A stretch of DNA of 33,725 nt from a virus, in the IMG/VR virus record IMGVR_UViG_3300025141_014966, positions 1 through 33,725 of that record; one strand, given 5' to 3'. Under the pieces are notes generated by a model. The model was not told the DNA's origin. It saw only the letters and a list, made by a program, of their open reading frames with translations, and made no database searches. Shown here piece by piece: positions 1 through 18,957 of this stretch (positions are counted from its first letter, which is position 1; each line of letters begins with the position of its first letter). A program made the position numbers and the translations under genes.

Positions 1-145
1 CATACCAATAAACCTCAAACTCCTCATCCGATTCTTTGAGCCTTCCCGGCCCCATGCGAATAATAATCCCCATGCGCCTCCACGGACACGGAAACTGTTG
101 CAAGTCTGCGCGTTGTTTATAAGTTACGAGATCACCGATCTTCAT
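1..145 (-). CDS. GDLV-family small protein, 3' end off window
   Basis: The first 48 residues are visible, starting MKIGDLVTYKQ; the rest lies beyond base 1. The N-terminus has the family motif M-K-I-G-D-L-V, later G-I-I-I, and an acidic stretch before E-V-Y-W. I infer a small SH3-like beta barrel of unknown function, as for its neighbours. The ATG at 145-143 lies inside the tail of the gene before it (14-nt overlap). A GGAG that is part of that gene's codons sits 7 nt upstream of the ATG and can serve as Shine-Dalgarno. Confidence 0.8.
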   Translation of the reverse strand, partial: MKIGDLVTYKQRADLQQFPCPWRRMGIIIRMGPGRLKESDEEFEVYWY

Positions 146-326
146 CTGGCAGCTCCATATTATCTTTCCCAATAATCCATTTCCACTCGGGATTACTTCC
201 AACCATTTTGAGTTCTACTCCGGTTTTACCGGGAAAACTGAGTATCTCAAAGGTTTCATCCAAGTAGTTTTTCATCCAATCCACTTTAGGTTCTGCAATC
301 AATTTTACGATGTCACCGATTTCCAT
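132..326 (-). CDS. GDLV-family small protein (64 aa)
   Basis: Starts MEIGDIVKLIAEP and ends MELPDEDR. The pattern of alternating hydrophobic residues, W-K-W near residue 50 and the C-terminal x-E-L segment fit the small barrel family that fills this region. It overlaps both neighbours by 14 nt. Its last codons (GAT GAA GAT CGG TGA) hold the next start (ATG AAG ATC GGT GAT) in another frame. The start is set by the family motif and by GGAG 7 nt upstream. Function unknown. Confidence 0.8.
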   Translation of the reverse strand: MEIGDIVKLIAEPKVDWMKNYLDETFEILSFPGKTGVELKMVGSNPEWKWIIGKDNMELPDEDR

Positions 327-480
327 TGATCAACTCCACAATACTTTCGTTCTCAAGGCTCCAAGTTCCATCGGCAAACTGAATACGAATCGCGTTTTCG
401 ACTTCTTCGTGATCCCACCAAACAGCGGTGACAATCCCAATACCGATATGTCCGACTTTCACCAAGTCACCGACTTTCAC
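313..480 (-). CDS. GDLV-family small protein, GTG start (55 aa)
   Basis: Short gene with a GTG start: (V/M)KVGDLVKVGHIGIGIVTAV at the N-terminus, then W-W-D-H-E-E, an I-R-I-Q-F strand, G-T-W-S-L-E-N and a final V-E-L-I-N-G-N-R. The regular arrangement of short beta strands suits an SH3-like fold. It is linked to the genes on both sides by 14-nt overlaps. GGAG lies 7 nt before the GTG and is encoded by the upstream gene's L-E-L codons. It is easy to miss because of its length and start codon, but fills an otherwise empty slot between two family members. Confidence 0.8.
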   Translation of the reverse strand: MKVGDLVKVGHIGIGIVTAVWWDHEEVENAIRIQFADGTWSLENESIVELINGNR

Positions 481-661
481 TTACCAACTCCAAATCTCTG
501 GCACGGTATGAGCCGCGATCTGTGCCTCCGCTCTTGTGGACCCATTCTATAACTTTGATTTCATCAGTACCGGGGATTTCCCGCACGATTAGTCCGAGCC
601 ACTCGCTGTGGTCAGGGGAATGGGTCGCCGTTCGATACTTTACTAGATCGCCAATCTTCAT
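467..661 (-). CDS. GDLV-family small protein, head of a four-gene chain (64 aa)
   Basis: MKIGDLVKYRTATHSPD start, central G-L-I-V-R-E and I-E-W-V strands, and a C-terminal R-D-L-E-L-V-S-E-S-R tail. This is the best example of the family consensus: N-terminal G-D-L-V, a G-[LI]-[VI]-V turn, a V-x-W strand and a D-L-E-L-[VI]-S end. It is the first gene after a promoter whose -10 lies only 6 nt from the ATG, so its mRNA is probably leaderless, and no Shine-Dalgarno is present. The next three genes follow in overlap. Function unknown. Confidence 0.85.
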   Translation of the reverse strand: MKIGDLVKYRTATHSPDHSEWLGLIVREIPGTDEIKVIEWVHKSGGTDRGSYRARDLELVSESR

Positions 662-667
662 GCTTAT

Positions 668-696
668 AGCATACCATGACAGAGCCGGTACGTCAA
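668..696 (-). promoter_or_regulatory. sigma70-type promoter, leaderless
   Basis: On the minus strand: TTGACG, 17 bp, TATGCT, then ATAAGC and the ATG. A start site about 7 nt after the -10 would fall on the A of the ATG. The -35 contains the TGA stop of the upstream gene. Confidence 0.75.
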
Positions 697-935
697 GAAA
701 AATATTTGCGAACTATGTCAAGGTCTTGTAGCAAATGAGTGTCTCGCCCCAAAGGCCAGTGGACCGTAGCAAGTTCCGTGCCAGCAGCACTATACTGATC
801 GGGTAGCAGTTGTTGAATCTTATCCTCAAGCGTACCTACGCGCACCACAACACCTACCGCGTGAGCATCCATATCGGGATACCATGCCGCCACAACACCA
901 TCGACCGTCAGGCGCACCAGATCGCCAACCTTCAT
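693..935 (-). CDS. GDLV-family small protein (80 aa)
   Basis: The frame is open further upstream, but the start is placed at MKVGDLVRLTVDG because that is the family N-terminus and gives an ATGA overlap with the preceding gene. Features: G-V-V-V-R-V strand near residue 30, V-H-W strand near residue 60, C-terminal L-Q-D-L-D-I-V-R-K. It is longer in the middle than most members. The stop codon TGA forms part of the -35 of the next promoter. Confidence 0.8.
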   Translation of the reverse strand: MKVGDLVRLTVDGVVAAWYPDMDAHAVGVVVRVGTLEDKIQQLLPDQYSAAGTELATVHWPLGRDTHLLQDLDIVRKYFS

Positions 936-1171
936 GCTGCGACCGATATTACCCTGATCTGGTTCTTCGTGCAGTGCGAAGCCTGTTCGTGCTGCATTGA
1001 CTTCCATACCAGAAACCTGGGATTGACAAACCAACGAACTATGAAGCCATCAACGTAGTTATACTGATTGTTGGTAATCTCCCTTTCCTCAATGATGATC
1101 CCTTGTCCTTTGACATAGCCCCGCTTCGTTTCAACGAGGGAGCCAACTCTGTACTTACTTTTTCGTGCCAT
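932..1171 (-). CDS. GDLV-like small protein with extended N-terminus (79 aa)
   Basis: Starts MARKSKYRVGSLVETKRGYV, so the family G-D-L-V appears as V-G-S-L-V preceded by a basic extension. G-Q-G-I-I-I-E-E and G-F-I-V-R-W-F correspond to the G-[LI]-V and V-x-W strands of its relatives. It heads a two-gene unit: its ATG is 6 nt from a consensus -10, so the message is predicted leaderless. It ends in an ATGA overlap with the next gene. Family membership is likely but less certain than for the others. Confidence 0.75.
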   Translation of the reverse strand: MARKSKYRVGSLVETKRGYVKGQGIIIEEREITNNQYNYVDGFIVRWFVNPRFLVWKSMQHEQASHCTKNQIRVISVAA

Positions 1172-1177
1172 GTTTAT

Positions 1178-1206
1178 ATCTTATCACCTTTCGTCGCTCG
1201 TGTCAA
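1178..1206 (-). promoter_or_regulatory. sigma70-type promoter, leaderless
   Basis: TTGACA, 17 bp, TAAGAT, then ATAAAC and the ATG of the 79-aa gene. The -35 is encoded within the Val-Asp-Thr codons of the upstream gene's tail, and the -10 directly follows that gene's TGA. Confidence 0.8.
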
Positions 1207-1519
1207 CAAGAAAATCGTCCAATGCGTTCAAATAAGCTACGCCGTTCGGGACTTGCCCGCGCAGGATGCCGCCGTGCTTTGCTATTACATTTGTTACCAC
1301 CGATACCGGAACATAACCATACACCGTTTCAGTAGGCTCGTCAGGATTTTCAGCCCAAGGCATAATGATTTCTTCGGCGTGGCTCGGATAGCCGACTTCT
1401 ACCTGCGTGTACTTTTCTGCATCATCAATGCGCGGCGAACAATAAGCCCCATCGTGTGCCTGAACGGACATTCTAAATCCGTCGCGACAAACAACTGTTT
1501 CATTTCTTTTGTAGGACAT
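1184..1519 (-). CDS. conserved phage protein of unknown function (111 aa)
   Basis: Residues 9-45 (VVCRDGFRMSVQAHDGAYCS and following) and 48-80 (V-E-V-G-Y-P-S, then P-T-E-T-V-Y-G-Y-V-P) resemble, from memory, a small protein often seen in marine phage genomes with the same order of motifs (C-x-D-G-F-R-M-S-V-Q, Y-C-x-P-R, E-V-G-[FY]-P, P-T-E-T-V-Y-G-Y-V-P). No function is known to me. It follows tRNA-Ile by 16 nt with AAGGAA before the ATG, so the tRNA and this gene probably share a transcript. Its C-terminal codons carry the next promoter's -35. Confidence 0.8.
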   Translation of the reverse strand: MSYKRNETVVCRDGFRMSVQAHDGAYCSPRIDDAEKYTQVEVGYPSHAEEIIMPWAENPDEPTETVYGYVPVSVVTNVIAKHGGILRGQVPNGVAYLNALDDFLVDTSDER

Positions 1520-1535
1520 AAGATTCCTTCGATAT

Positions 1536-1612
1536 TGGTAGGGCAGGCGGGACTTGAACCCGCGACCGGCGCTTTATAAGAACGCTACTCTGACCTACTG
1601 AGTTACTGCCCT
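1536..1612 (-). tRNA. tRNA-Ile (anticodon UAU), CCA encoded
   Basis: A full cloverleaf can be folded on the minus strand: acceptor AGGGCAG/CTGCCCT, D stem ACTC/GAGT, anticodon stem GCGTT/AGCGC with loop CTTATAA, T stem GCGGG/CCCGC with loop TTCAAGT, discriminator A and a genomic CCA. The anticodon is at 1576-1578. A genomic UAU anticodon reads AUA without needing lysidine modification of a CAU tRNA. Confidence 0.92.
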
Positions 1613-1680
1613 GCGCGGGGAAGTAAGTCATTTCTGAGTATACTCTTAGGTTCGTAAGCGTCGGCCTAACTCTTATTAAA

Positions 1681-1860
1681 CTAGAAGTTAATCAATTCAC
1701 GCCATTCATTACGAATATTGTGATAGGTTTTCAAGGTGGACAGTAGTTCGCCAAACGGTTCGCCGTTGGGCGAGGGGAGGTCGTGAAGTTCTGCAATGAT
1801 AGTAGACATTTTTTCAGAAATGAGAATATCTACCAGTTCCGTCATATTATCAGACATCAT
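1681..1860 (-). CDS. small protein of unknown function (59 aa)
   Basis: Begins MMSDNMTELVDILISEKMST, then I-I-A-E-L-H-D-L-P-S-P-N-G-E-P-F and T-Y-H-N-I-R-N-E-W-R-E-L-I-N-F. Mostly helical and acidic; no recognised domain. It lies 3 nt after the 88-aa gene and just before tRNA-Ile, so it is probably in the same unit. A second in-frame Met follows the first, so the exact start is uncertain by one codon. Confidence 0.65.
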   Translation of the reverse strand: MMSDNMTELVDILISEKMSTIIAELHDLPSPNGEPFGELLSTLKTYHNIRNEWRELINF

Positions 1861-1863
1861 TTT

Positions 1864-2130
1864 TTACTCTTCAATCTCAAATGTATCGTCGTCGGAAGCG
1901 TCACTAACAAAATGATTCTTTACCTTCGACCAGTTTGTAACGTCCCATTCAAGTTCCTTGACCGCAACGCCACTCCTTTTTGCATAAGTAACTTTGTTCA
2001 TCATTTGAGGGTAAGTAATGTTCTCGTCCATCTCGTTTTGAATCGCAAGGTGAGCCTCCTGTCGGGTTCTTGACGCATTCCAAATTTCGATCAGCCGAAT
2101 GGCAAAAGCCGTTTTGTTCACATATTCCAT
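1864..2130 (-). CDS. small protein of unknown function (88 aa)
   Basis: Starts MEYVNKTAFAIRLIEIWNAS and ends in an acidic tail (D-A-S-D-D-D-T-F-E-I-E-E). The first 50 residues look helical. Residues 43-60 (M-M-N-K-V-T-Y-A-K-R-S-G-V-A-V-K-E-L) could form a helix-turn-helix-like segment, but this is only an impression. AAAGGAAAA lies about 6 nt before the ATG. It is the first gene after a promoter with a structured leader. Confidence 0.75.
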   Translation of the reverse strand: MEYVNKTAFAIRLIEIWNASRTRQEAHLAIQNEMDENITYPQMMNKVTYAKRSGVAVKELEWDVTNWSKVKNHFVSDASDDDTFEIEE

Positions 2131-2155
2131 TTAATTTTCCTTTTCTATTGGGGAT

Positions 2156-2169
2156 GGGCGTTAACGCCC
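2156..2169 (-). promoter_or_regulatory. leader hairpin upstream of the 88-aa gene
   Basis: The transcript contains GGGCGTTAACGCCC, a perfect 14-nt palindrome able to form a 5-bp stem with a TTAA loop, between the promoter and the ribosome binding site. It has no U-run, so it is not a terminator; an mRNA-stabilising or operator role is possible. Confidence 0.5.
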
Positions 2170-2186
2170 GTCTTTACTGTCCTTTT

Positions 2187-2215
2187 AGTATACCTCATAG
2201 GGTGAGGCTAGTCAA
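2187..2215 (-). promoter_or_regulatory. sigma70-type promoter
   Basis: TTGACT, 17 bp, TATACT on the minus strand. The -35 spans the Val-Asp-stop codons (GTT GAC TAG) of the 88-aa gene ending at 2208. Unlike the leaderless promoters nearby, this one has a leader of about 50 nt. Confidence 0.75.
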
Positions 2216-2474
2216 CCTTTTTCTTCCTTTTTTCGTAACTTTCTTTCGCCTGTCCAGCCAGCGCGCCAATATCTCCCAGAAAATCGGAGAGTTGCTCATC
2301 ACCCTTCGCCGTTCCCGTAAAGTATTTAGACGGACCAACCCGCATCGCATCGGGGGCATTCGGCATTTCTCCGGTTTTCATATTCTCGCGGATTTCTTCC
2401 TCGGTATCACCATAAGGCGACCACCAGCCGCCGCCGGGTTGAAGAATCTTTCCATCTGGTCCCATTACACTCAT
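2208..2474 (-). CDS. small Gly/charged protein of unknown function (88 aa)
   Basis: Starts MSVMGPDGKILQPGGGWWSP; then an acidic helix (D-T-E-E-E-I-R-E-N), and ends with a basic E-K-R-K-K-K-V-D. No recognisable domain. The ATG overlaps the stop of the preceding gene by 4 nt (ATGA). The last two codons plus stop form the -35 of the next promoter. Confidence 0.75.
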   Translation of the reverse strand: MSVMGPDGKILQPGGGWWSPYGDTEEEIRENMKTGEMPNAPDAMRVGPSKYFTGTAKGDEQLSDFLGDIGALAGQAKESYEKRKKKVD

Positions 2475-2707
2475 ACTTGTCCACTTCCGTTCATTATTGT
2501 ATTGTGATCTCCGTGTCCGAATAAAGCGGCGACTGGCGCAAAAGAACCTCCGTCAGCCGGGTGTCTCAGTGTTACCATAACTGCCTGACAATATGCGAGA
2601 CTAATGTACCAAAAGCATTCTTTTCGAGAATCCCATTTGGCAACTGCCGTATCTTCGTGAATGCCGAAGTAACTTACGTTATTAACGAGGTCTATTTTTG
2701 AAATCAT
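2471..2707 (-). CDS. small protein of unknown function (78 aa)
   Basis: The frame is open upstream inside the previous gene, but MISKIDLVNNVSYFGIHEDT is the more likely start. The protein is a compact alternating sequence (V-A-K-W-D-S-R, C-F-W-Y-I-S-L-A-Y-C-Q-A-V-M-V-T-L-R-H) ending H-G-D-H-N-T-I-M-N-G-S-G-Q-V. No family recognised. It overlaps the upstream gene by 26 nt and the downstream gene by 4 nt. Confidence 0.7.
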   Translation of the reverse strand: MISKIDLVNNVSYFGIHEDTAVAKWDSRKECFWYISLAYCQAVMVTLRHPADGGSFAPVAALFGHGDHNTIMNGSGQV

Positions 2708-2924
2708 TTTTTCTTTTGTCCCTCGGGCCTCGGCGCTCGGGCGCGGGCCAACAGATTTTAAGTTCAATTAACTCGGCAGCGGTTTTTTGAAACCACTCGT
2801 CCATGTGTCGGATGTGCCCCCTATCAATAAGAAACTGCCACGCACCCCTAATGATCTCTATATCGTCGTAGACGATCTGTCCTTCGGCAATATCGCGGGC
2901 TTCTGTAAAGGTCATTCCTTTCAT
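2682..2924 (-). CDS. conserved small phage protein (80 aa)
   Basis: MKGMTFTEARDIAEGQIVYD, then I-I-R-G-A-W-Q-F-L-I-D-R-G and W-F-Q-K-T-A-A-E-L-I-E-L-K-I-C. The A-W-Q-x-L-I-D-x-G ... W-x-x-x-T-A-x-x-L-I arrangement is, from memory, common in small early proteins of marine phages of unknown function. A basic tail (P-E-R-R-G-P-R-D-K-R-K-N) extends over the next gene's start. The ATG is 6 nt from a -10, so its mRNA should be leaderless. Confidence 0.8.
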   Translation of the reverse strand: MKGMTFTEARDIAEGQIVYDDIEIIRGAWQFLIDRGHIRHMDEWFQKTAAELIELKICWPAPERRGPRDKRKNDFKNRPR

Positions 2925-2930
2925 AGTATT

Positions 2931-2959
2931 ATTCTACCACACGCTATCAATTTTGTCAA
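2931..2959 (-). promoter_or_regulatory. sigma70-type promoter, leaderless
   Basis: TTGACA, 17 bp, TAGAAT, then AATACT and ATG. The first three bases of the -10 are the TAG stop codon of the 50-aa gene, and the -35 overlaps its Phe-Asp codons. Confidence 0.8.
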
Positions 2960-3086
2960 ATGCTTCTTTCAAAATCATTTGCACAAACTGTTCAGAAGGA
3001 CTGAGGGGGCGACCAGACTCCACTTCTTCCAGTAGCCGCAACAGTGTTTCAATGTGGCTCTTTTCAAAATTAAGATGGGTTCTCAT
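2934..3086 (-). CDS. small helical protein of unknown function (50 aa)
   Basis: MRTHLNFEKSHIETLLRLLE, then E-V-E-S-G-R-P-L-S-P-S-E-Q-F-V-Q-M-I-L-K-E-A-F-D-K-I-D-S-V-W. Two amphipathic helices are likely. The frame is also open upstream into tRNA-Leu, but a start there would read through the tRNA, so the ATG 15 nt after the tRNA is preferred. It is probably co-transcribed with tRNA-Leu. Confidence 0.65.
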   Translation of the reverse strand: MRTHLNFEKSHIETLLRLLEEVESGRPLSPSEQFVQMILKEAFDKIDSVW

Positions 3087-3101
3087 GGTTGTTTCGTCAC
3101 T

Positions 3102-3187
3102 TGGTAGCGCGGGCGGGACTCGAACCCGCAAGCCCTGTGGGCGGCAGATTTTGAGTCTGCTGTGTATACCGATTCCACCACCGCGCC
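3102..3187 (-). tRNA. tRNA-Leu (anticodon CAA), CCA encoded
   Basis: Type II tRNA on the minus strand: acceptor GGCGCGG/CCGCGCT, anticodon stem GCAGA/TCTGC with loop CTCAAAA, a long variable arm with GCCC/GGGC, T stem GCGGG/CCCGC with TTCGAGT, discriminator A and genomic CCA. The long variable arm and CAA anticodon identify tRNA-Leu for UUG codons. Confidence 0.93.
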
Positions 3188-3199
3188 ATTCATATCCTT

Positions 3200-3228
3200 A
3201 TCATACTACAGCAGCGAGCCGCTGTCAA
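3200..3228 (-). promoter_or_regulatory. sigma70-type promoter for tRNA-Leu
   Basis: TTGACA, 17 bp, TATGAT, 12 nt before the mature tRNA 5' end. The -35 lies in the Ile-Asp-Ser codons of the upstream gene, whose TAG stop immediately precedes the -10. Confidence 0.8.
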
Positions 3229-3436
3229 TCTTTTTCTCGGTTAATTTGTTCACTACCTCAAAATCTTCTTCAGACAGATCAAGAGTGTGACTTCCAAAAC
3301 GCGCGCTCACAATATGATAAATATAACCATGCTGTGCGTGTTCCACGGGCCAATAATCCAATACTATGCCAACTGAGGGGCTGGGCTGCATGAACTCGTT
3401 TTTTAATCTTACAAGATCACCGACTGCGAACTTCAT
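3206..3436 (-). CDS. GDLV-family small protein (76 aa)
   Basis: MKFAVGDLVRLKNEFMQPSP start, so two residues are inserted before the G-D-L-V motif. S-V-G-I-V-L-D-Y-W, I-Y-H-I-V-S-A-R-F and E-E-D-F-E-V-V-N-K-L match the family strand pattern. It overlaps the preceding gene by 20 nt; the two extra codons lengthen the usual 14-nt overlap, while the stop still falls in the Gly-Asp codons. The tail K-I-D-S-G-S-L-L hosts the tRNA promoter. Confidence 0.82.
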   Translation of the reverse strand: MKFAVGDLVRLKNEFMQPSPSVGIVLDYWPVEHAQHGYIYHIVSARFGSHTLDLSEEDFEVVNKLTEKKIDSGSLL

Positions 3437-3608
3437 CGGGAGGCCTGCTTACTAGCTTAAACTCAGCATCCACCACTTCTTTCGGAAAAAGACTTTCGTC
3501 GTCTCCGCGCACGGCATGTAACTGGTAGCTATATTCTCCGACATCAGTGACGAGCCACCTGATAACCAGCTTTTTGTTTTCAATGATGTCGCCTACTTTA
3601 AATGTCAT
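3417..3608 (-). CDS. GDLV-family small protein, head of a two-gene unit (63 aa)
   Basis: MTFKVGDIIENKKLVIRWLV start, Y-S-Y-Q-L-H-A-V-R, D-A-E-F-K-L-V-S-R and a final D-E-V-R-S-R. It is a divergent but recognisable member. The ATG is 8 nt from a consensus -10 and has no Shine-Dalgarno. The stop codon TGA is supplied by the GGT GAT codons of the following family member. Confidence 0.82.
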   Translation of the reverse strand: MTFKVGDIIENKKLVIRWLVTDVGEYSYQLHAVRGDDESLFPKEVVDAEFKLVSRPPDEVRSR

Positions 3609-3616
3609 CTAGGTAT

Positions 3617-3645
3617 AGTGTAGCAAGATTGTTAACTGATGTCAA
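3617..3645 (-). promoter_or_regulatory. sigma70-type promoter, leaderless or nearly so
   Basis: TTGACA, 17 bp, TACACT, then 8 nt (ATACCTAG) and the ATG at 3608. It lies just downstream of the zinc-ribbon mini-gene. Confidence 0.8.
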
Positions 3646-3652
3646 CAGTTTT

Positions 3653-3751
3653 TTACTTTTCTTTTAGGGGCACGCTGCTGCCGCAGGCCAAACAACAGTA
3701 CCACTGTTTGTGCGTGTGCCAGCCGCAAAATCTGCAATAAAACTTATTCAT
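3653..3751 (-). CDS. mini zinc-ribbon protein (32 aa)
   Basis: A very short gene, MNKFYCRFCGWHTHKQWYCC followed by L-A-C-G-S-S-V-P-L-K-E-K. The spacing C-x2-C-G ... C-C-x2-C-G is that of a zinc ribbon with two knuckles, here almost without anything else. It overlaps the stop of the preceding family gene by 8 nt, which suggests translational coupling. Binding partner and role are unknown. Support rests on the four well-spaced cysteine positions and the exact fit in the operon. Confidence 0.65.
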   Translation of the reverse strand: MNKFYCRFCGWHTHKQWYCCLACGSSVPLKEK

Positions 3752-3938
3752 TCCTGCTCGCCAACTTCCATTGTAGAGGATCGGTCATAAATGGTTGGGG
3801 CTTATCAAAATACTGAATTTTCATTCGGCCAAACAACGGTGAAGCCGCTACGCTCAACACTATCGCCAGCGTATCGCCGGGAGGACGGTGATGGGCGCGC
3901 TTCAACTTGATCAAGTCGCCAACTTCAAACTGTTCCAT
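3744..3938 (-). CDS. GDLV-family small protein (64 aa)
   Basis: Start placed at MEQFEVGDLIKLKRAHHRPP; a Met two codons earlier is possible. L-A-I-V-L-S-V, R-M-K-I-Q-Y-F and L-Q-W-K-L-A-S-R-N-E follow the family pattern. With this start the overlap with the preceding gene is 14 nt, although here the upstream TGA falls in the Phe-Glu codons rather than Gly-Asp. Confidence 0.8.
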   Translation of the reverse strand: MEQFEVGDLIKLKRAHHRPPGDTLAIVLSVAASPLFGRMKIQYFDKPQPFMTDPLQWKLASRNE

Positions 3939-4140
3939 CGACACTGCTCACTATTTCTATATCTTCAAGTTGCCAAGTCCACGTACCTTCTTCGCCGGTA
4001 TGTTGGTGTCGCGTCAGAACAGTGACGGCTGGGTATACATCGTGCCACTTCGGGCGAAGGTCATACACTTCGGACATAACAATTCCAAGCCTGCCGTCGT
4101 TGGGGTCCGCGCAGTATCTTACCAAGTCACCGATATTCAT
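3925..4140 (-). CDS. GDLV-family small protein (71 aa)
   Basis: MNIGDLVRYCADPNDGRLGI start, G-I-V-M-S-E-V-Y, V-T-V-L-T-R, W-Q-L-E-D-I-E-I-V-S-S. Joined to both neighbours by 14-nt overlaps; its ATG-AAT-ATC-GGT-GAC carries the TGA stop of the gene before. The Shine-Dalgarno is weak (GAGCAGAG), so translation probably depends on ribosomes finishing the upstream gene. Confidence 0.83.
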   Translation of the reverse strand: MNIGDLVRYCADPNDGRLGIVMSEVYDLRPKWHDVYPAVTVLTRHQHTGEEGTWTWQLEDIEIVSSVDGTV

Positions 4141-4324
4141 TTGCTCTGCTCACAATGTCAAAGTTATCGCGCGCGACCAACCCATCTTCTCCGTGCAGCC
4201 GCACATAATATCCATCATCATGGCTGACGAGAAAAATCTTCAAGGCGGTCGCTATAATATAAGATGGAGGAAGACAGGTCACCTTGAATCTTACGAGATC
4301 GCCCACGGTCGGTAGTTGTTCCAT
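4127..4324 (-). CDS. GDLV-family small protein, head of a four-gene chain (65 aa)
   Basis: MEQLPTVGDLVRFKVTCLPP start, I-A-T-A-L-K-I-F-L-V, Y-Y-V-R-L-H-G-E-D, R-D-N-F-D-I-V-S-R. The ATG sits 6 nt after a -10, so the mRNA is predicted leaderless. It is followed by two more family members and the zinc-ribbon mini-gene. Confidence 0.82.
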   Translation of the reverse strand: MEQLPTVGDLVRFKVTCLPPSYIIATALKIFLVSHDDGYYVRLHGEDGLVARDNFDIVSRANEYR

Positions 4325-4326
4325 GT

Positions 4327-4521
4327 CTATAGTGTAGCAGATGAGGAGGCGCGTGTCAAGGGTTTATTGTAACCTTTGCTGACGACCTCGATACTCTTCA
4401 TCGAAGCCCAAAAAGTGCCGTAGTCATCGCTCCAGCATACTTTAACGTAGCGGTCGAGTACCTCGATCACGATGCCTAGAAGCCCACTGCTATATCTTCT
4501 CACCAGATCGCCACTCTTCAC
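4327..4521 (-). CDS. GDLV-family small protein, GTG start (64 aa)
   Basis: (V/M)KSGDLVRRYSSGLLGIVIE, Y-V-K-V-C-W-S-D-D-Y-G, S-I-E-V-V-S-K-G. The GTG start is fixed by the motif and by GGAGG 6 nt upstream. The gene begins inside the preceding 63-aa gene (32-nt overlap). Its last codons (Pro-Leu-Thr to the stop) encode the whole promoter of the next chain in another reading. Confidence 0.8.
   Translation of the reverse strand: MKSGDLVRRYSSGLLGIVIEVLDRYVKVCWSDDYGTFWASMKSIEVVSKGYNKPLTRASSSATL
4331..4359 (-). promoter_or_regulatory. sigma70-type promoter, leaderless
   Basis: TTGACA, 17 bp, TACACT, then ATAGAC and ATG. It lies wholly within the last coding bases of the upstream gene, whose TAG stop falls just after the -10. 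Confidence 0.82.
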
Positions 4522-4681
4522 TGATATCCTCCACCCTTATTTTAGCATACTCAGGGTGAACGTCAAGGAGAATCTCAATTAATCTTTCTTTCTCATAGCC
4601 GGTTGTCCTGATCAGAAACTTCTTTTCGGTATTGTCACTAGTGTCAAGAACCGCCAGTTTCCAGCACTGTTCAAACTCCAT
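4490..4681 (-). CDS. small protein of unknown function (63 aa)
   Basis: MEFEQCWKLAVLDTSDNTEK, then K-F-L-I-R-T-T-G-Y-E-K-E-R-L-I-E-I-L-L-D-V-H-P-E-Y-A-K-I-R-V-E-D-I. The predicted order is two strands, a helix and a strand. No family recognised. TAAACT followed by ATTCTC precedes the ATG, like the leaderless -10s nearby, but no good -35 is present. It overlaps the next gene by 32 nt. Confidence 0.72.
   Translation of the reverse strand: MEFEQCWKLAVLDTSDNTEKKFLIRTTGYEKERLIEILLDVHPEYAKIRVEDISEEWRSGEKI
4539..4566 (-). promoter_or_regulatory. possible sigma70-type promoter inside the 63-aa gene
   Basis: TTGACG, 16 bp, TAAAAT on the minus strand, 17 nt before the GTG at 4521, with GGAGG in between. 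Weaker than the other promoters listed. Confidence 0.45.
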
Positions 4682-4690
4682 GAGAATAGT

Positions 4691-5101
4691 TTAAAACGAC
4701 AGTATAGTACGCTGTGGCGTATACGGCCTGAACTCATAAACAAAAGCATTTTCGCTGCTTTCTTCGGGTACTAAAAGATAAGAAACATGTTCTCCGCCGT
4801 GGAAATGCGTGAAGAACTTGGTCATAACCTGGGCTGCGAGGTTCGCGGCTGTTTTATCGTGGACCCCATCCCATGTAATTACTACTATGTTACGTCCGTC
4901 TTCGCAGTCAATATATTCGGCAGCTTTAAACGTGGTCTTGTTTTTTATATTCAGCACTTCATAGGCGTCGATAGTTCCGTAGTTATCGGTTTTGGTACAC
5001 GTTTCTGCATATATACTTTTCTTAACCTGGATCTGGTCCGTCGTTGCGCAAGACGCTAACAATAAGCATGCCAGCGGTAATATATTTTTAACTTTTCTCA
5101 T
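4691..5101 (-). CDS. small secreted lipoprotein (136 aa)
   Basis: Residues 1-18 (MRKVKNILPLACLLLASC) form a classic lipoprotein signal: basic start, hydrophobic core and L-A-S-C lipobox with Cys18, implying lipid modification and membrane anchoring in a Gram-negative-type host. The mature part is about 118 residues with further Cys residues at about 35 and 65, possibly a disulfide. No enzyme motif is seen. The start overlaps the preceding 48-aa gene by 14 nt, with AAGGAG upstream. Candidate roles such as superinfection exclusion are inference only. Confidence 0.8.
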   Translation of the reverse strand: MRKVKNILPLACLLLASCATTDQIQVKKSIYAETCTKTDNYGTIDAYEVLNIKNKTTFKAAEYIDCEDGRNIVVITWDGVHDKTAANLAAQVMTKFFTHFHGGEHVSYLLVPEESSENAFVYEFRPYTPQRTILSF

Positions 5102-5234
5102 TCTTTCTTTTCTCCTTCTTAATCGTGTAGATCGATCGCGTGCTTTTACGCGGAGCGTCGATCCACTTCCATCCTCCCTTTGAATCAGGGACTTTAATCT
5201 TCATCGGTTCAATATTTATTATTCTTGTAGGCAT
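5088..5234 (-). CDS. small basic protein (48 aa)
   Basis: MPTRIINIEPMKIKVPDSKG, then G-W-K-W-I-D-A-P-R-K-S-T-R-S-I-Y-T-I and a Lys-rich end. A strong GGAGG 6 nt before the ATG supports translation. The Lys-rich tail overlaps the lipoprotein gene by 14 nt. No known family; it could bind nucleic acid through its basic tail. Confidence 0.65.
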   Translation of the reverse strand: MPTRIINIEPMKIKVPDSKGGWKWIDAPRKSTRSIYTIKKEKRKNEKS

Positions 5235-5245
5235 TCCGCCTCCTT

Positions 5246-5506
5246 TCATCTTCCAATTCTGTTGCATTGAAGTTCATCATAGTGCCGGAGCAACTTTAAT
5301 CTTTGAGCTGCAGCGGTTGTCTCGGCGCCTAGTGGAATTATGTTTGGTTGAAACATTCTTTTCGGCCTGGCTGGGGACTCTATGAGCTCATAACTTTTAT
5401 TTATCTGTTCCACTAGTGCGTCACACGCGGGGGCGCGTTCGGGCTCACAGTGTGTGACCATGAGAAACAGTGCGAAATACAGGGAACCAGCTACTTTAGT
5501 TGTCAA
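5246..5506 (-). CDS. small protein with N-terminal hydrophobic segment (86 aa)
   Basis: Residues 5-19 (V-A-G-S-L-Y-F-A-L-F-L-M-V-T-H) are hydrophobic and followed by Cys20, so a signal peptide or membrane anchor is likely; the V-T-H-C sequence is a poor lipobox. The mature part is helical with Cys at about 28 and 81. The start is a TTG 6 nt after the previous stop, and the ribosome binding site is weak, so the start is uncertain. It sits next to a clear lipoprotein gene. Confidence 0.6.
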   Translation of the reverse strand: MTTKVAGSLYFALFLMVTHCEPERAPACDALVEQINKSYELIESPARPKRMFQPNIIPLGAETTAAAQRLKLLRHYDELQCNRIGR

Positions 5507-5512
5507 TGGAAT

Positions 5513-6205
5513 TTATTCTTCTGCGGCCCTTCGAAACAGCACTTTTGCCACTCCACGCTTTTGCCAACGGTATTTGGGCGTCTTTTCTTCCAGTAAGGAC
5601 TGCTCCACACACTTTACATATTTACCGTAAGCAACTCTTTGTTTCTCAGTGAGTTCACCCAAGTCAATTTTAACCTTCATTGAAGCGCCTTCGTATTCGT
5701 CGTCAAAGAAGGGAATAATAAACTTTCTTCCTTTCACCTGAGAATAGAAATCTTCTCGCCCTTGCACGTCGGCACCAGACATAGAAACTTGTCGCGTCTC
5801 AATAGTGGTGTCGCCCTCGATGTATTCAAAATCAAACCAGACGCCCTCGTCGTCCTCTCTTTTCTCGCCCCAAATGATAGCCTCCTGCCCGAAATCCTTT
5901 CCAAGAACAGTCGCTTCGCTGCGAGGTATATTCATAACCATGAAAGACTTTTCCGGAGAACCAAACTTTCCTTGAATTTTTCTGAATCCATAATTGCCGG
6001 CTCGTAGTCTTTTTTCTAGAGCTGCGTTATTTTCTTTATTAACTTCGCGCGGAGCAGGTTCGCCGCCAGGATTTTCTCCGGTAAGAAAAGAAATCGTTTG
6101 TATGTTCGGAATAACTCCTACCATCGCCTGCCTCGTGCGGGCAAATCCGGCTTCATTTAATTCTTCACGTATTATTCGTTTTAACTTAGTCTTGGAGATC
6201 CTCAT
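5513..6205 (-). CDS. DUF3293-like phage protein (230 aa)
   Basis: The N-terminus MRISKTKLKRIIREELNEAG is a basic amphipathic helix of a type I recall at the start of many marine-phage virion proteins. Residues 35-115 (I-S-F-L-T-G-E-N-P, N-K-E-N-N-A-A-L, P-E-K-S-F-M-V-M-N-I, F-G-Q-E-A-I-I-W) follow the motif order of the DUF3293 family as I remember it. A C-terminal half of about 110 residues is unassigned. It is probably a late or virion-associated protein; no catalytic motif is evident. TAAATAGTT on the plus strand lies just upstream. Confidence 0.75.
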   Translation of the reverse strand: MRISKTKLKRIIREELNEAGFARTRQAMVGVIPNIQTISFLTGENPGGEPAPREVNKENNAALEKRLRAGNYGFRKIQGKFGSPEKSFMVMNIPRSEATVLGKDFGQEAIIWGEKREDDEGVWFDFEYIEGDTTIETRQVSMSGADVQGREDFYSQVKGRKFIIPFFDDEYEGASMKVKIDLGELTEKQRVAYGKYVKCVEQSLLEEKTPKYRWQKRGVAKVLFRRAAEE

Positions 6206-6219
6206 ATACTAAATAGTTC

Positions 6220-6402
6220 TTATCGAATGACACGACCGAGTTCATTTTCTTTGTGAGTCGTCACCGGCATACGAGGATCTAGTCTATCATGCCAATCTAC
6301 CATATAAAGAAGCTGATTCTCTATTTTCATCGTACCTACCACTTCTCCGATCCGTCCTTCGCCACGAAGCACCACCAAATCTCCAATCTTAAATGACCTC
6401 AT
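6220..6402 (-). CDS. GDLV-family small protein (60 aa)
   Basis: MRSFKIGDLVVLRGEGRIGE, then V-V-G-T-M-K, L-L-Y-M-V-D-W and N-E-L-G-R-V-I-R. The start overlaps the stop of the previous family member by 4 nt (ATGA). Confidence 0.82.
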   Translation of the reverse strand: MRSFKIGDLVVLRGEGRIGEVVGTMKIENQLLYMVDWHDRLDPRMPVTTHKENELGRVIR

Positions 6403-6611
6403 CGCTGAAAATTTTCATCTTCTACCTTCTTAAGTTTGTCGCTTGAGATTATAAAGCCGCCAGGATTGCCTTCAAACGCGACCTTCACCCAGCTTATCCC
6501 CATAGTTTTTACAACGGCTTGACGCCCCACGAAGTGCGCGAGAGCCACCTCCGTAAGTATTTTTTCTTCGTCTATCTCGACCACATCGCCAATGCGAAAG
6601 GGTAAACTCAT
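6399..6611 (-). CDS. GDLV-family small protein (70 aa)
   Basis: MSLPFRIGDVVEIDEEKILT, R-Q-A-V-V-K-T-M-G-I-S-W-V-K-V-A-F-E-G and S-D-K-L-K-K-V-E-D. Here the family start appears as R-I-G-D-V-V. It directly follows the 58-aa gene (1-nt gap) and overlaps the next member by 4 nt. Confidence 0.8.
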   Translation of the reverse strand: MSLPFRIGDVVEIDEEKILTEVALAHFVGRQAVVKTMGISWVKVAFEGNPGGFIISSDKLKKVEDENFQR

Positions 6612-6612
6612 T

Positions 6613-6789
6613 TTATAAACTTTCTTTTCTGCGCCATTTGTGTCTCCAGGCGTCCTCGCATAACCCCATGTGATTAAAATGCTTGATGCACTTAGTGTCG
6701 TGTCGGCTTAAATTCCTGCAACGGCGCAACTCGCCGCCGGGAAGTTTTCTGAGGAGTGCCGTCCAAAGATCGATAAGCCATTTTTTCAT
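6613..6789 (-). CDS. small basic Cys/His protein (58 aa)
   Basis: MKKWLIDLWTALLRKLPGGE, then L-R-R-C-R-N-L-S-R-H-D-T-K-C, H-F-N-H-M-G-L-C-E and a basic end. Three Cys and four His in the second half could bind a metal, but the spacing is not a standard finger. The first helix is amphipathic. It overlaps the stop of the repeat protein by 4 nt and sits 1 nt before the next gene. Confidence 0.65.
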   Translation of the reverse strand: MKKWLIDLWTALLRKLPGGELRRCRNLSRHDTKCIKHFNHMGLCEDAWRHKWRRKESL

Positions 6790-6998
6790 TTGTTTTCTTT
6801 TCGCAGCTCCGCTAGCCTTCGTTTAATGTAGGGGTGTTCTTGAATCATGGCCTTTTCGAATGTTTCGGCGCGAAGTTCAGCGATACGGCGCGCAATATAT
6901 TTTTCTGTGCACTCGTCCATTAACAACGGAAGAATGTCGCCTCGAAGCTCAGCATTACGACGAGTTGTGTATTTTTCTGTTCGTTCCTTCGCTGTCAT
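6786..6998 (-). CDS. three-repeat charged helical protein (70 aa)
   Basis: From MTAKERTEKYTTRRNAELRG the protein is built from three copies of a helical unit: T-E-K-Y-T-T-R-R-N-A-E-L-R, T-E-K-Y-I-A-R-R-I-A-E-L-R and H-P-Y-I-K-R-R-L-A-E-L-R. The start is set at 6998 because a strong promoter ends 7 nt before it; an open frame continues further upstream but would cross the promoter. Strong charge and regular Arg-Arg spacing suggest nucleic-acid or protein binding, but nothing more can be said. Confidence 0.7.
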   Translation of the reverse strand: MTAKERTEKYTTRRNAELRGDILPLLMDECTEKYIARRIAELRAETFEKAMIQEHPYIKRRLAELRKENK

Positions 6999-7005
6999 AC
7001 TGTTA

Positions 7006-7034
7006 ATATTAGCACACTTATCCATGCAAGTCAA
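7006..7034 (-). promoter_or_regulatory. sigma70-type promoter, leaderless
   Basis: TTGACT, 17 bp, TAATAT, then TAACAGT and ATG. The -35 lies in the Ile-Asp-Leu codons at the end of the upstream gene, and its TAA stop falls in the spacer. Confidence 0.78.
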
Positions 7035-7248
7035 TTGCTCCCTGCGTTTTTTTAAGGTATTCTTCCAGCATTTCGAAGGTCTGCCCATTGAAAAATTTTA
7101 CTTCCCAAAGGTTCCACTGTGCTCGCGATCCTTTTTTATTCAGTCTAGTTAGAAGTCCCGGCCCCTGCTGTGCAGGATAGTCCTCGTGCCGAGTGTCGTG
7201 TTCTACTATGTCGCCCACTCTTAGTTTTTTTGTATCAGAATAGTTCAT
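7018..7248 (-). CDS. GDLV-family small protein (76 aa)
   Basis: The start is placed at MNYSDTKKLRVGDIVEHDTR because it gives a 14-nt overlap and has GAGGAG about 10 nt upstream; a start six codons earlier is possible. G-L-L-T-R-L-N, W-N-L-W-E-V-K-F-F and M-L-E-E-Y-L-K follow the family pattern with an N-terminal extension of about nine residues. The tail A-I-D-L-H-G carries the next promoter's -35. Confidence 0.78.
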   Translation of the reverse strand: MNYSDTKKLRVGDIVEHDTRHEDYPAQQGPGLLTRLNKKGSRAQWNLWEVKFFNGQTFEMLEEYLKKTQGAIDLHG

Positions 7249-7537
7249 CGTTTTCAAACTCCTCATCTTCCGCTGGCTCTAAAAAAACAGGGGACTCAAA
7301 AGATTTTGGTGCTGGCTCCACCCGAGGTCGATGAGGAGATTCAATGCGTAAGTTTTTCACCGAATTCCACACGAAAAGCTTATCGAGAGGACTTTGTTTG
7401 TTCCATCTGACTGCCACTTTTCCATGATCGTCAGGCCCGTCAAACACTATTCCTAACGCGCCCTGGCATGGGCCTAAAATTTCAAGCTGGGATGCGTGGT
7501 AAGATACCAAATCTCCCTTTTTGGGTTTTCGATCCAT
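7235..7537 (-). CDS. GDLV-family protein with acidic C-terminal tail (100 aa)
   Basis: MDRKPKKGDLVSYHASQLEI, then A-L-G-I-V-F-D-G-P-D-D, K-V-A-V-R-W-N and V-K-N-L-R-I. After about residue 70 an added Pro-rich and acidic tail (E-P-A-E-D-E-E-F-E-N-D-E-L-F) makes it longer than its relatives. It overlaps its upstream neighbour by 1 nt (TAATG) and the downstream member by 14 nt. Confidence 0.8.
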   Translation of the reverse strand: MDRKPKKGDLVSYHASQLEILGPCQGALGIVFDGPDDHGKVAVRWNKQSPLDKLFVWNSVKNLRIESPHRPRVEPAPKSFESPVFLEPAEDEEFENDELF

Positions 7538-7920
7538 TATACGTCAGCAGGAGCATTTCCGAAACGCTCTTGCTCCCCATCGTCCCACGTTAAAATACTG
7601 GAATTGCCAGGGTGCGGCTTAATGTGAATTTTAATAAAATCAGCCATCGAATCAAATATAGCCAATGCACCGCGCGGGGCTGGAGTAAGCCAGTGGATGA
7701 TAGCTTGTCCCGTCGCCAGAACAACTCCTTCAATCACAACCCCAACACCAGACACTCCCGTTTCATCATATTGGCGAGCTATCGTAAATGTACGAATTCC
7801 CTGTGGTGCTTGTGTGGCGGGGCGCTTAGGTTTAAGAACTTCCGGTTCGGTTGAAACCTCTTCCTTAACCTCGTCTGGCGCTGGCGCTGGCGCCTTTTTT
7901 TTGGTGGTTTTGCGTGCCAA
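7537..7920 (-). CDS. small protein, disordered start plus barrel-like domain (127 aa)
   Basis: Residues 1-40 are Lys/Pro/Ala/Glu-rich and probably disordered (A-R-K-T-T-K-K-K-A-P-A-P-A-P). Residues 44-110 (T-F-T-I-A-R-Q-Y-D-E-T-G, G-V-G-V-V-I-E-G-V, A-I-I-H-W-L) form a strand-rich domain that may be a distant relative of the neighbouring barrels; similar G-V-V-x-E-G-V-V ... W domains occur in marine phages as far as I recall. The start is TTG with AGGAGT upstream. Confidence 0.72.
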   Translation of the reverse strand: MARKTTKKKAPAPAPDEVKEEVSTEPEVLKPKRPATQAPQGIRTFTIARQYDETGVSGVGVVIEGVVLATGQAIIHWLTPAPRGALAIFDSMADFIKIHIKPHPGNSSILTWDDGEQERFGNAPADV

Positions 7921-7923
7921 AAC

Positions 7924-9174
7924 TTACTCCTGTTCTGCTAACGATTTTTGAACATCGTAGGCGGTTCCCACGGCATCTAAAAGTTTGCCCATGTATCCCC
8001 CTCGACGCAATACTTTAAACGCAAGATTCTCCGTAGAATAGATGCCCCCTTTTTCGAGGCCACCCCTTCTCATTTTTTTAATTTTGTCTTTGGTTTTTCG
8101 TCCCAGCGAGAGAGCTGCGTCATACTCTTGACGGTCGAGGTGCCTGTCTACTTTATCTATGTCACGCATAATGTGTCGAGCCTTTTTGAATATGTTTACC
8201 TTGTCTATGCTAAATTCTTGTCGAGAGGGGCGTAACTCCCACTCGTCATTTAATATAGAATAAATTCCTGTGGATGTATGTTTTTCATCGTCGTCCTGAA
8301 CATACAACTCAACCTCGTATCCCTTCACCTTGATGTCGTGATTGCGGTTCCAGTTAGCTCGGACGGCGTCAAAATATTTCTTAATCAATCCTTCATCCTC
8401 GCCAATCTCTCTAAAATCTACTACGATGTGTACATCCAGATCCGAATACTCGGACCAGTTGTAGTTAGCGAGAGATCCTGTTAGTATTATATCCTTTATT
8501 TCCGCATTTGGCAAGTCTAATTTTTCAATAAATTCCTCTGCGATTTCTTGCAGCCTGTGTCTGATCTCGGGGCGCATCTGATCACGCACCCAGATCTGCG
8601 GATTAAATATTGGTTGCATCTCAAAAGAGGTTATTAATTTTCCTCCCGCGGGACGAATTTTTATTTTAAGTTCCTCGAGGCCACCAGCGCCAGCGGGGGA
8701 CGATTTCGATCTTTTCATAGAAGGCCGCGTAATTCCTTTGCCGCCACCGGTATGCCGATTGCCACCTTTGCCAATCAGTCTTTTTTTCTTCCTGGAGTGT
8801 CCCACTCTATATTTTCTTTGTACTTCTTCTTCTTCCCGCAGTTCTTCTGCTTTTTCAGCTGTATGTCGGCGCACGCTCACGCCACGCATTTTATTAATGT
8901 CGTTAGCTATTTGTTGAGTTAGTATATCTCTGTCCAATTTTTTTGGTAGGCGTACGCGTAATTTCAATGTTGAAAGGAAATGATCTGCCAACTGTTTTTG
9001 TACGCCACCGTCGGCGGCCTCAACGGTCGACACCGTTAATACTTCTGGAACAGCGCGAATGTCATTTTTAACTTCATCGCGATTGCCGCCGCGCTCATTA
9101 GAAAGCGCCACCAACAAAAATGCATTGAAGGTTTCTTGATCGTATACCGGATCGTCTCTCCACTTAGCAACCAT
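7924..9174 (-). CDS. nucleotidyltransferase-domain phage protein (416 aa)
   Basis: Three parts. Residues 1-100 are helical and unassigned; about 110-180 are strongly basic and Gly-rich (S-R-K-K-K-R-L-I-G-K-G-G-N). Residues 225-300 hold a minimal nucleotidyltransferase motif: I-L-T-G-S-L-A-N-Y-N-W-S-E-Y-S-D-L-D-V-H-I, with the Gly-Ser and Asp-x-Asp of the DNA polymerase beta superfamily. Such enzymes transfer a nucleotide to RNA, antibiotics or proteins; the substrate here is unknown. Phages often carry this domain in large unassigned proteins, so a virion location is possible. Shine-Dalgarno GAGGAG precedes the ATG. Confidence 0.8.
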   Translation of the reverse strand: MVAKWRDDPVYDQETFNAFLLVALSNERGGNRDEVKNDIRAVPEVLTVSTVEAADGGVQKQLADHFLSTLKLRVRLPKKLDRDILTQQIANDINKMRGVSVRRHTAEKAEELREEEEVQRKYRVGHSRKKKRLIGKGGNRHTGGGKGITRPSMKRSKSSPAGAGGLEELKIKIRPAGGKLITSFEMQPIFNPQIWVRDQMRPEIRHRLQEIAEEFIEKLDLPNAEIKDIILTGSLANYNWSEYSDLDVHIVVDFREIGEDEGLIKKYFDAVRANWNRNHDIKVKGYEVELYVQDDDEKHTSTGIYSILNDEWELRPSRQEFSIDKVNIFKKARHIMRDIDKVDRHLDRQEYDAALSLGRKTKDKIKKMRRGGLEKGGIYSTENLAFKVLRRGGYMGKLLDAVGTAYDVQKSLAEQE

Positions 9175-11846: not shown

Positions 11847-12266
11847 TTACTTCACTTCAATGCGGTGAGAAACGGGAATTTCAGTCTCGGGCTTTGGCAC
11901 AATCACCGAAAGGATTCCTTGATTATACTCTGCATTCACGTTCGTAGGATCAACATTTTTAGGAAGCGTCCAACTACGATGAAAAGAGCTGTAAGATACA
12001 ATATTGCTGTTGCCTTCCTTCGCCTCGTGGGAGATGGAAATGGTTGTATCATTCACGTCAATATTAATATCATTCTTGTCGAGCCCGGGCATCACAAGGT
12101 CGATCCGATAATCACTATCGGATGCCGTGACATTCGTTTTAATTTGTGGAGTAGCCTCTCGCAAAAAAGAATTAAAAATCGGAGCAAATCCCCAATCATC
12201 CTCAAAAATACTGTCTAGCAGGCTTCTCGTGGTCGGAACATTCGACCGTCTAATAATAGGATACAT
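11847..12266 (-). CDS. Hsp20 small heat-shock protein (139 aa)
   Basis: An alpha-crystallin domain spans about 42-130: K-T-N-V-T-A-S-D-S-D-Y-R-I-D-L, M-P-G-L-D-K-N-D-I-N-I, A-E-Y-N-Q-G-I-L-S-V-I-V-P-K. The C-terminal I-E-V is the I-x-[IV] anchor used for oligomer assembly. The N-terminal 40 residues are short and Phe-rich. Such proteins hold unfolded proteins in an ATP-independent manner. The gene has its own promoter, a strong AAGGAGGG ribosome site and its own terminator, so it is expressed on its own, near the phage GroEL operon. Confidence 0.95.
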   Translation of the reverse strand: MYPIIRRSNVPTTRSLLDSIFEDDWGFAPIFNSFLREATPQIKTNVTASDSDYRIDLVMPGLDKNDINIDVNDTTISISHEAKEGNSNIVSYSSFHRSWTLPKNVDPTNVNAEYNQGILSVIVPKPETEIPVSHRIEVK

Positions 12267-15269: not shown

Positions 15270-15291
15270 TCATCCTCCGAGTCGTAGGTTT

Positions 15292-15319
15292 ATTATAACA
15301 CAAAATTTTCAATTGTCAA
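15292..15319 (-). promoter_or_regulatory. sigma70-type promoter for groEL
   Basis: TTGACA, 16 bp, TATAAT: both hexamers match the consensus exactly. It starts one base after the TAG stop of the 561-aa gene. No CIRCE-type inverted repeat is visible. Confidence 0.85.
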
Positions 15320-15320
15320 A

Positions 15321-17006: not shown

Positions 17007-17026
17007 AATACAAGCTCCTGATATAA

Positions 17027-17620
17027 TTAGACGATTATATCTGCAATACCCATTTCAACCGCTTCTTCTGCGCTAAAGTATGCATCAAGGTTTTTAGCAA
17101 CAATCTTCTTTACCTGCTTCATTGTTAAATTGGTCTCTTCTACCAGCGCTTCGAACATCATAAGCTCCATGATTTCCGCTTCTTTAACGGAAGCCTGAAT
17201 ATTGTGGAGACTGCCGCTTTCGCCCGTTAAAACACGATGTAGCATTATGCGACAGTTCTTGCCAATACGACGCTCACCTTTGGTGCCTGCCGCTAACAAC
17301 AATACACCGGCCGACATTACTTTGCCTATTCCAAAAGTGTGGAGAGGACAGTCTTCTCGAACCATTCGCATCATATCATAGACGGCAAACATTTCTGCCA
17401 CGTTGCCGCCGCCTGTTGAAATATAGAAATCGACTGGCTTAAGCGGAATGATCCCATCCTCATCTGGAGGGCCCTCGCAAGTATGGTGATAGTGAAGAAG
17501 CCCTATTAAAAATTCCTGTGTGTTCTCTTCGTTGACGTCTCCATAAATTCCCAGCACTCTTGGCTCGTCCGGCTCGTCTTCGCTCTCAAATACAATAACT
17601 TCTTCTTCTTGGTCGCTCAC
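17027..17620 (-). CDS. clpP: ClpP-like serine protease, first copy (197 aa)
   Basis: The ClpP/crotonase fold is clear: S-T-G-G-G-N-V (oxyanion loop), G-K-V-M-S-A-G-V-L-L-L with catalytic Ser103, I-M-L-H-R with His128 and L-D-A-Y-F-S-A with Asp179, so the triad is complete. An acidic stretch replaces the usual processed N-terminus (D-Q-E-E-E-V ... E-S-E-D-E-P-D). ClpP forms barrel peptidases fed by AAA unfoldases; no ClpX or ClpA is in this window, so it may use the host partner or act as a capsid-maturation protease. The GTG start overlaps the previous stop by 4 nt. A second ClpP-like gene lies 4 kb upstream. Confidence 0.92.
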   Translation of the reverse strand: MSDQEEEVIVFESEDEPDEPRVLGIYGDVNEENTQEFLIGLLHYHHTCEGPPDEDGIIPLKPVDFYISTGGGNVAEMFAVYDMMRMVREDCPLHTFGIGKVMSAGVLLLAAGTKGERRIGKNCRIMLHRVLTGESGSLHNIQASVKEAEIMELMMFEALVEETNLTMKQVKKIVAKNLDAYFSAEEAVEMGIADIIV

Positions 17621-18012: not shown

Positions 18013-18021
18013 CTTAACTCC

Positions 18022-18052
18022 AAAAAAAAACCGCGGGGAGTTCCCACGGTTT
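18022..18052 (-). terminator. intrinsic terminator after the acidic repeat protein
   Basis: Minus-strand RNA: AAACCGTGGG, loop AACTC, CCCGCGGTTT and a run of U. A 10-bp stem with one G-U pair. The A-run on the other side could give weak termination in the plus direction as well. Confidence 0.88.
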
Positions 18053-18053
18053 T

Positions 18054-18082: not shown

Positions 18083-18106
18083 TCAAATACTGCTTTTTAT
18101 TTTAGT

Positions 18107-18916: not shown

Positions 18917-18957
18917 TATAATATTCTCCTAAAACGAACAAGTGTTGCTACATTTAA

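Follow-up and report, generated by a model that had tools for sequence, protein, structure and literature searches.

The window analysed here is an entire virus contig of 33,725 bases (IMG/VR record IMGVR_UViG_3300025141_014966), the left 7.5 kb of which hold an array of 16 related small open reading frames (ORFs), m00 to m15, all on the minus strand. An earlier note on this DNA, made from the letters alone, had described sixteen related small ORFs filling about 45% of this arm, and it was right on number, positions and share: summed, the ORFs span ~3.34 kb, or 44% of positions 1-7537. The two tRNA genes that it saw interrupting the array are real as well (Ile, 1536-1612; Leu, 3102-3187). The contig end cuts the array on the left and leaves m00 incomplete; judging from a 170.9-kb relative (G001, 74% identical at a neighbouring nucleotidyltransferase gene) with 34 members, the array would extend beyond the window. 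What the note lacked is a 14-nucleotide (nt) double-coding overlap between neighbouring genes, here called the seam, the gain, loss and reordering of whole genes at this seam, and the apparent exchange of single cassettes between phage genomes. The genes, followed by the overlaps that join them, are:

2-145, minus strand: m00, truncated by the contig end; ortholog L082:13347-13544, 81% identical
132-326, minus strand: m01, 64 residues; a different family member occupies its slot in G001
313-480, minus strand: m02, 55 residues, GTG start; subthreshold CarD_TRCF_RID match
467-661, minus strand: m03, 64 residues; five-strand SH3-like barrel predicted by AlphaFold2
693-935, minus strand: m04, 80 residues
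932-1171, minus strand: m05, 79 residues; ortholog in G001, 80% identical
3206-3436, minus strand: m06, 76 residues
3417-3608, minus strand: m07, 63 residues; ortholog in G001, 77% identical
3744-3938, minus strand: m08, 64 residues
3925-4140, minus strand: m09, 71 residues
4127-4324, minus strand: m10, 65 residues
4327-4521, minus strand: m11, 64 residues
6220-6402, minus strand: m12, 60 residues; ortholog in G001, 73% identical
6399-6611, minus strand: m13, 70 residues; most divergent; predicted KOW-like barrel, modelled on a separate alignment of two sequences
7018-7248, minus strand: m14, 76 residues from an internal ATG, 82 residues from 7266
7235-7537, minus strand: m15, 100 residues
132-145, minus strand: seam m01/m00, 14 nt
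313-326, minus strand: seam m02/m01, 14 nt
467-480, minus strand: seam m03/m02, 14 nt, GTGAAAGTCGGTGA; the m03 stop lies inside the Gly-Asp codons of m02
3925-3938, minus strand: overlap m09/m08, 14 nt, diverged from the seam consensus
4127-4140, minus strand: seam m10/m09, 14 nt
7235-7248, minus strand: overlap m15/m14, 14 nt, diverged from the seam consensus

Membership, distribution and fold of the family

A strict form of the N-terminal motif, [IVLF]GD[LIVM][VIL], occurs 13 times in the six frames of positions 1-7537, whereas 300 first-order Markov randomisations of this region averaged 0.22 occurrences and never exceeded 3; the other 26 kb of the window have one. In leave-one-out searches with a hidden Markov model (HMM), each member left out of the training set came first or second among the non-training matches from 605 ORFs. 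An HMM that was trained on other contigs and stripped of the N-terminal motif still ranked 14 of the 16 members among the first 18 when 270 sequences were scored, with m10 and m13 falling outside the top ranks. Because it failed this motif-free test, m10 is, on sequence outside the motif, the weakest member, while the membership of m13 is supported by an ortholog and by its predicted fold; peptide patterns found no further relatives of m13 in viral contigs. Twelfth in the same ranking came a 127-residue phrog_7499 protein (7537-7920, minus strand) with a GVGVVIE...IIHW stretch that resembles the family, and this protein may be a longer, seventeenth member.

Using the neighbouring nucleotidyltransferase gene as bait, we found six related contigs with arrays; besides the 34 members of G001, 32 were counted in G002. 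A search of viral contigs with the DNA pattern of the gene junctions returned at least 120 stretches, and two further patterns enlarged the set. The resulting 226 array loci (1.99 Mb) contain 2,070 members at an HMM E <0.01, with no match among reversed decoys. Strand use is uniform within a locus: in the first 120 loci, none of the 1,134 members departs from the strand that most members of its locus use. Twelve large contigs of 134-293 kb each carry between 12 and 31 members at E <=0.01, and among four named phages (a Microcystis phage, a 484-kb uncultured phage, a Flavobacterium phage and a cyanophage) two have none and two have one. Because a T4-type gp23 capsid protein is encoded by nine of ten large array contigs, the carriers appear to be mostly T4-like large phages, and from the IMG sample numbering we take the array contigs to be mostly marine. 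Searching the cultured phages of INPHARED by tblastn with one member and with the family consensus gave no match, and a search of cultured phages with the seam DNA gave partial matches at chance level, of which the one examined, in Det7, lies on the strand opposite to the annotated genes. The junction pattern also occurs in five contigs of metagenome-assembled bacterial genomes (L213-L217: Deltaproteobacteria, Flavobacteriales, Acidiferrobacteraceae, Opitutales and WOR-3); these may be phage sequences binned with their hosts and may hint at who the hosts are.

The 226 loci encode 1,863 distinct sequences with a median of 63 residues, which form 1,121 clusters at 50% identity. Conserved columns (MKVGDLV, G-[IV]-V, V-x-W, W and LE[VI][IV][SN]) alternate with stretches that vary in sequence and length, and the isoelectric points range from 4.4 to 9.8 between the outer deciles, with 560 acidic and 431 basic members. 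The median ratio of nonsynonymous to synonymous substitution rates (dN/dS) is 0.20 for the family and 0.11 for longer genes of the same loci, the former being slightly inflated by the 14-nt overlap, which restricts some synonymous sites. Because of this low ratio, the mini-ORFs are real proteins under purifying selection. Chance or an ORF artefact as their origin is ruled out by the motif counts, the leave-one-out HMMs, the decoys and dN/dS. Within the window, paralogs share less than 40% identity and near-identical tandem copies are absent, which agrees with the strong, old divergence that the earlier note had put in place of recent duplication; its picture of an old expansion left out that the set is also actively reshuffled (see below).

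AlphaFold2 modelled m03, aligned with 106 relatives, as a five-strand barrel with a predicted local distance difference test score (pLDDT) of 88. The divergent m13, modelled independently from an alignment with its own ortholog only, gave the same strand order (pLDDT 80), and the SH3-like barrel that had been guessed from the strand pattern was borne out. Foldseek placed both models among SH3/KOW barrels, with template modelling (TM) scores around 0.6-0.7 and a best E of 0.005, and a search of PDB sequences with the family profile retrieved HERC2, Spt5 KOW, PsaE and uL24 chains. We are thus almost certain that this is one family with a predicted five-strand KOW/SH3-like barrel fold. With known members of this superfamily (Spt5 KOW, uL24, L14e, PsaE, NdhS, PetP, YorP and HspQ) the array proteins share the predicted barrel and the G-D-x-V and G-x-V signatures, but the window members stand outside the curated Pfam families and have about 10-25% identity to solved structures. 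No window member matched KOW (PF00467) at E up to 1, and one of 106 family members did so at E 4e-5; CarD_TRCF_RID (PF02559) gave m02 15.6 bits, below the cut-off of 23, and matched two of the 106 (best E 2.9e-4). Assignment to a single known Pfam, PHROG, NCBIfam or PADLOC family was rejected, as the matches were scattered and weak. Several viral structure matches in BFVD share the accession prefixes A0A516M7xx and A0A516LBxx/LCxx, and one or two deposited viruses may therefore hold several members.

The seam and the exchange of whole genes at it

Across the loci, 874 adjacent gene pairs overlap by exactly 14 nt, the commonest arrangement, and 142 by 4 nt, the rest mostly lying farther apart. 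The seam around the overlap is ~35 nt long, and its consensus, tTGGAGGTgATCAGTGAAAGTCGGTGATTTGGT, spells LEVISESR-stop in the frame of the upstream gene and (M/V)KVGDLV in that of the downstream gene. A Shine-Dalgarno sequence, GGAGGT, sits in the Glu-Val codons of the upstream gene, and the upstream stop falls within the Gly-Asp codons of the downstream gene, as TGA or, where the residue is Asn or Ser, as TAA or TAG. Shine-Dalgarno-like sequences precede 91% of seam starts versus 60% of other starts, and the Gly codon is GGT at all seam starts with a canonical head. The C-terminal motif given in the earlier note was correct, but the beginning of the following gene partly dictates it. In the window, six of 15 junctions are 14-nt overlaps, four of them still recognisable as seam, and the window's other gene pairs, on a hand-picked list of 25 ORFs, lack this overlap.

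Pairs of nearly identical loci show whole genes coming and going at the seam. The clearest pair is L097 and L099, 99.5% identical and distinguished by a single family gene (8364-8543) that L097 alone carries, its breakpoints lying at a shared 20-nt head. When all loci with at least 85% identity were compared systematically, 14 distinct insertions or deletions (indels) with family genes emerged, or 13 if the two sides of the swap between L087 and L240 count as one event. Each covers one to four whole genes, and all 14 have 19-51 nt of seam sequence at their breakpoints; in four of the 14 one flanking gene falls below the HMM cut-off, yet the repeat there is clearly seam sequence. By contrast, seam is missing from the breakpoints of five indels that contain no family gene, which mostly share 0-8 nt; one of the five has a tRNA-like segment. 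A segment with a tRNA-like 3′ end (L159 7253-7469) was gained or lost relative to L202, in arrays 99.6% identical, with only 8 nt of homology. Because seam windows make up 24% of array sequence, random breakpoints would rarely all fall at seams, and selection for intact genes contributes to the pattern. Gene order also changed, in L143 versus L156/L107 and in L087 versus L240.

Between arrays without other alignable sequence nearby, we detected 36 isolated shared blocks of 85-99% identity, of which 35 correspond to exactly one gene and 35 end within 35 nt of gene ends. In the six block pairs that we read, the neighbouring genes were mostly unrelated; near the block of L265/L273 lies another pair of similar genes (64% identical), and L134/L154 share a second block elsewhere. 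The window itself offers a comparable case, as the order m02-m01-m00 recurs in G001 with another member in the place of m01. Together, these comparisons of sequences make cassette exchange at seams very probable.

Recombination, function and the alternatives

The ingredients each have precedents. Phage KOW domains are one, and another is that boundary sequences at gene junctions have been proposed as a source of mosaicism in lambdoid phages, although they are undetectable at most mosaic boundaries (PMC3029335). In both systems short conserved DNA at gene ends would provide the homology for whole-gene exchange; the array differs in that hundreds of its junctions carry one and the same word, which is placed inside a two-gene coding overlap and joins genes of one family. 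The array has the two properties of a boundary module, a shared ~35-nt consensus at its junctions and exchange breakpoints located there in all 14 indels and 35 single-gene blocks. In PubMed Central, with subscription journals and preprints outside the search, we found no prior account of a long one-family array with double-coded recombination seams.

A RecA/UvsX-family recombinase is encoded by all ten large contigs tested and a tyrosine integrase by none of them, and both searches were positive in 14/14 control genomes. Because a RecA is present, and there is no tyrosine integrase, no attC signature and no strong hairpin at the seam, homologous recombination at the seam by the phage recombinase is probably the simplest reading. 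Each cassette would be a single gene whose product is a KOW/SH3-like barrel of ~60 residues, its framework conserved and its loops variable, and the ~35-nt junction would serve at once to end the upstream gene (C-terminus and stop), to bind the ribosome (Shine-Dalgarno sequence) and to start the downstream gene. If two junctions recombine, probably through RecA/UvsX, whole genes would be removed, inserted or reordered, and because nearly the same word stands at every junction, reading frame and ribosome binding would stay intact. The cassette proteins would presumably be made together through coupled translation. Tentatively, at a little under even odds, we propose an integrase-free cassette system in which the double-coded overlap is the recombination site, cassettes can be joined in whatever combination, always in frame and with a ribosome-binding site, and T4-like marine phages trade an arsenal of barrels gene by gene.

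Two other accounts of the junctions deserve comparison. Head-to-tail single-gene cassettes with a repeated junction recall integrons, which share ordered, exchangeable cassettes with the array and have been reported in phages (PMC9892861). Movement by a site-specific integrase is nevertheless hardly credible here: controls show that an integrase should have been detected, attC-type GTTRRRY/RYYYAAC pairs are no commoner at seams (6/874) than in control windows (9/874), and the seam forms no strong hairpin and lies inside both coding sequences. A seam kept merely for its beta-strand, ribosome binding and stop/start, with random joining and selection retaining exchanges at gene ends, would explain why each seam base has a coding or translational reason and why heads without the 14-nt overlap favour the same codons (GGT 435/529). 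We regard it as unlikely, since near-exact seam is shared at the breakpoints of the family-gene indels and mostly next to nothing at those of the others, and since Val3 at seams is GTC in 510 and GTT in 3 of 636 cases, compared with 259 and 31 of 407 at other heads, a bias that the upstream Arg codon partly explains.

Taken together, we favour, with a probability of about 0.6, a recombination-shuffled cassette array of small binders under purifying selection. Several points weigh against it. All contigs are metagenome assemblies, so that misjoining at repeats is the main technical risk; two cassette states (L107/L156 and L136/L281) recur in independent contigs. Breakpoints at gene ends are also left by selection against broken genes, and in the window only the six junctions mentioned above are 14-nt overlaps, some of them drifted. 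Foldseek gave no match at E <=0.001, which the small size of the barrel would lead one to expect, and a target is known for none of the members. The scarcity of near-copies speaks for the array as favoured here: despite easy recombination, a near-copy (at least 70% identity) was found in the same locus for 4 of 1,263 members and in another locus for 546, though the two pools differ in size and some loci derive from one contig or from near-identical ones. It seems that duplicates disappear while dissimilar members persist, as would suit a set whose members differ in function.

Barrels of the KOW type bind either proteins or nucleic acids. Because the members span a wide range of charge, have variable loops, are non-redundant and turn over rapidly as cassettes, we favour small binders that each address a different host target, most likely in host takeover or counter-defence, a reading of the sequences to which we give even odds. 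One family with one SH3-like/KOW-like fold is what the earlier note had supposed, but the anti-defence or anti-repressor function that it had raised as a possibility did not emerge: PADLOC gave a single weak, YodC-like match among the members (E=0.002) and no family match implying anti-defence. Alternatively, all members could be one common type of binder of nucleic acids or of the transcription or translation machinery, with copies tuning the binding to the host RNA polymerase, ribosome or nucleoid. The closest predicted folds and profile matches, KOW domains of Spt5 and of ribosomal proteins, point that way, as does the subthreshold match of m02 to an RNA-polymerase-interaction domain. So does MotB of phage T4, a DNA-binding protein that acts with H-NS and has a predicted KOW/SH3-like N-terminal domain (PMC7827196). 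As an early protein with such a domain, MotB is a precedent for host takeover (PMC7827196); it differs in being a single gene with an extra C-terminal oligonucleotide/oligosaccharide-binding (OB) fold domain, whereas the array members are stand-alone barrels of median 63 residues with no second domain and no uniform charge. The spread of isoelectric points, with acidic members outnumbering basic ones, makes a shared nucleic-acid-binding role unlikely, and the window members lack a curated KOW match, so we consider a common machinery binder improbable. Less probable still is a non-adaptive by-product, in which cheap small genes spread because the seam eases copying and bring the phage little benefit; the extreme copy number and turnover would suit it, but dN/dS of about 0.2 indicates purifying selection, and the near-identical tandem copies expected from unequal crossing-over are almost absent.

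With different host targets as the preferred reading, the array points to a large unstudied repertoire in large phages, built on one small barrel scaffold with variable loops, whose members could serve as a library to screen for host targets and counter-defence activity. Through whole-gene exchange at the seam, a set of probable host-targeting proteins could be reshuffled gene by gene between viruses. Boundary sequences visible at hundreds of junctions, together with pairs of nearly identical genomes in which the products can be seen, make the mosaicism idea directly testable.

Some neighbouring genes recur with the arrays. A MoxR-like AAA ATPase and a DUF2201 metallopeptidase/von Willebrand factor A (VWA) protein form a pair inside arrays, at L115 10840-13390 and in about 36 other loci, and a 111-residue protein of the window (1184-1519, minus strand) has homologs within the arrays of about 30 loci. 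Inside the window's array lies a DUF3293 protein (5513-6205, minus strand; E 6e-14) with a subthreshold match to S-adenosylmethionine (SAM) lyase (E 0.001), possibly an anti-restriction gene of the SAM-lyase type. Farther right, positions 13698-31670 encode GroEL, ClpP, a DnaE-type polymerase III alpha subunit, a NifU_N (IscU-like) protein, dUTPase and Dam, and HSP20 is encoded just outside this region (11847-12266). A polymerase III alpha subunit alongside a T4-type gp23 capsid, the latter found in relatives, is an unusual mix.

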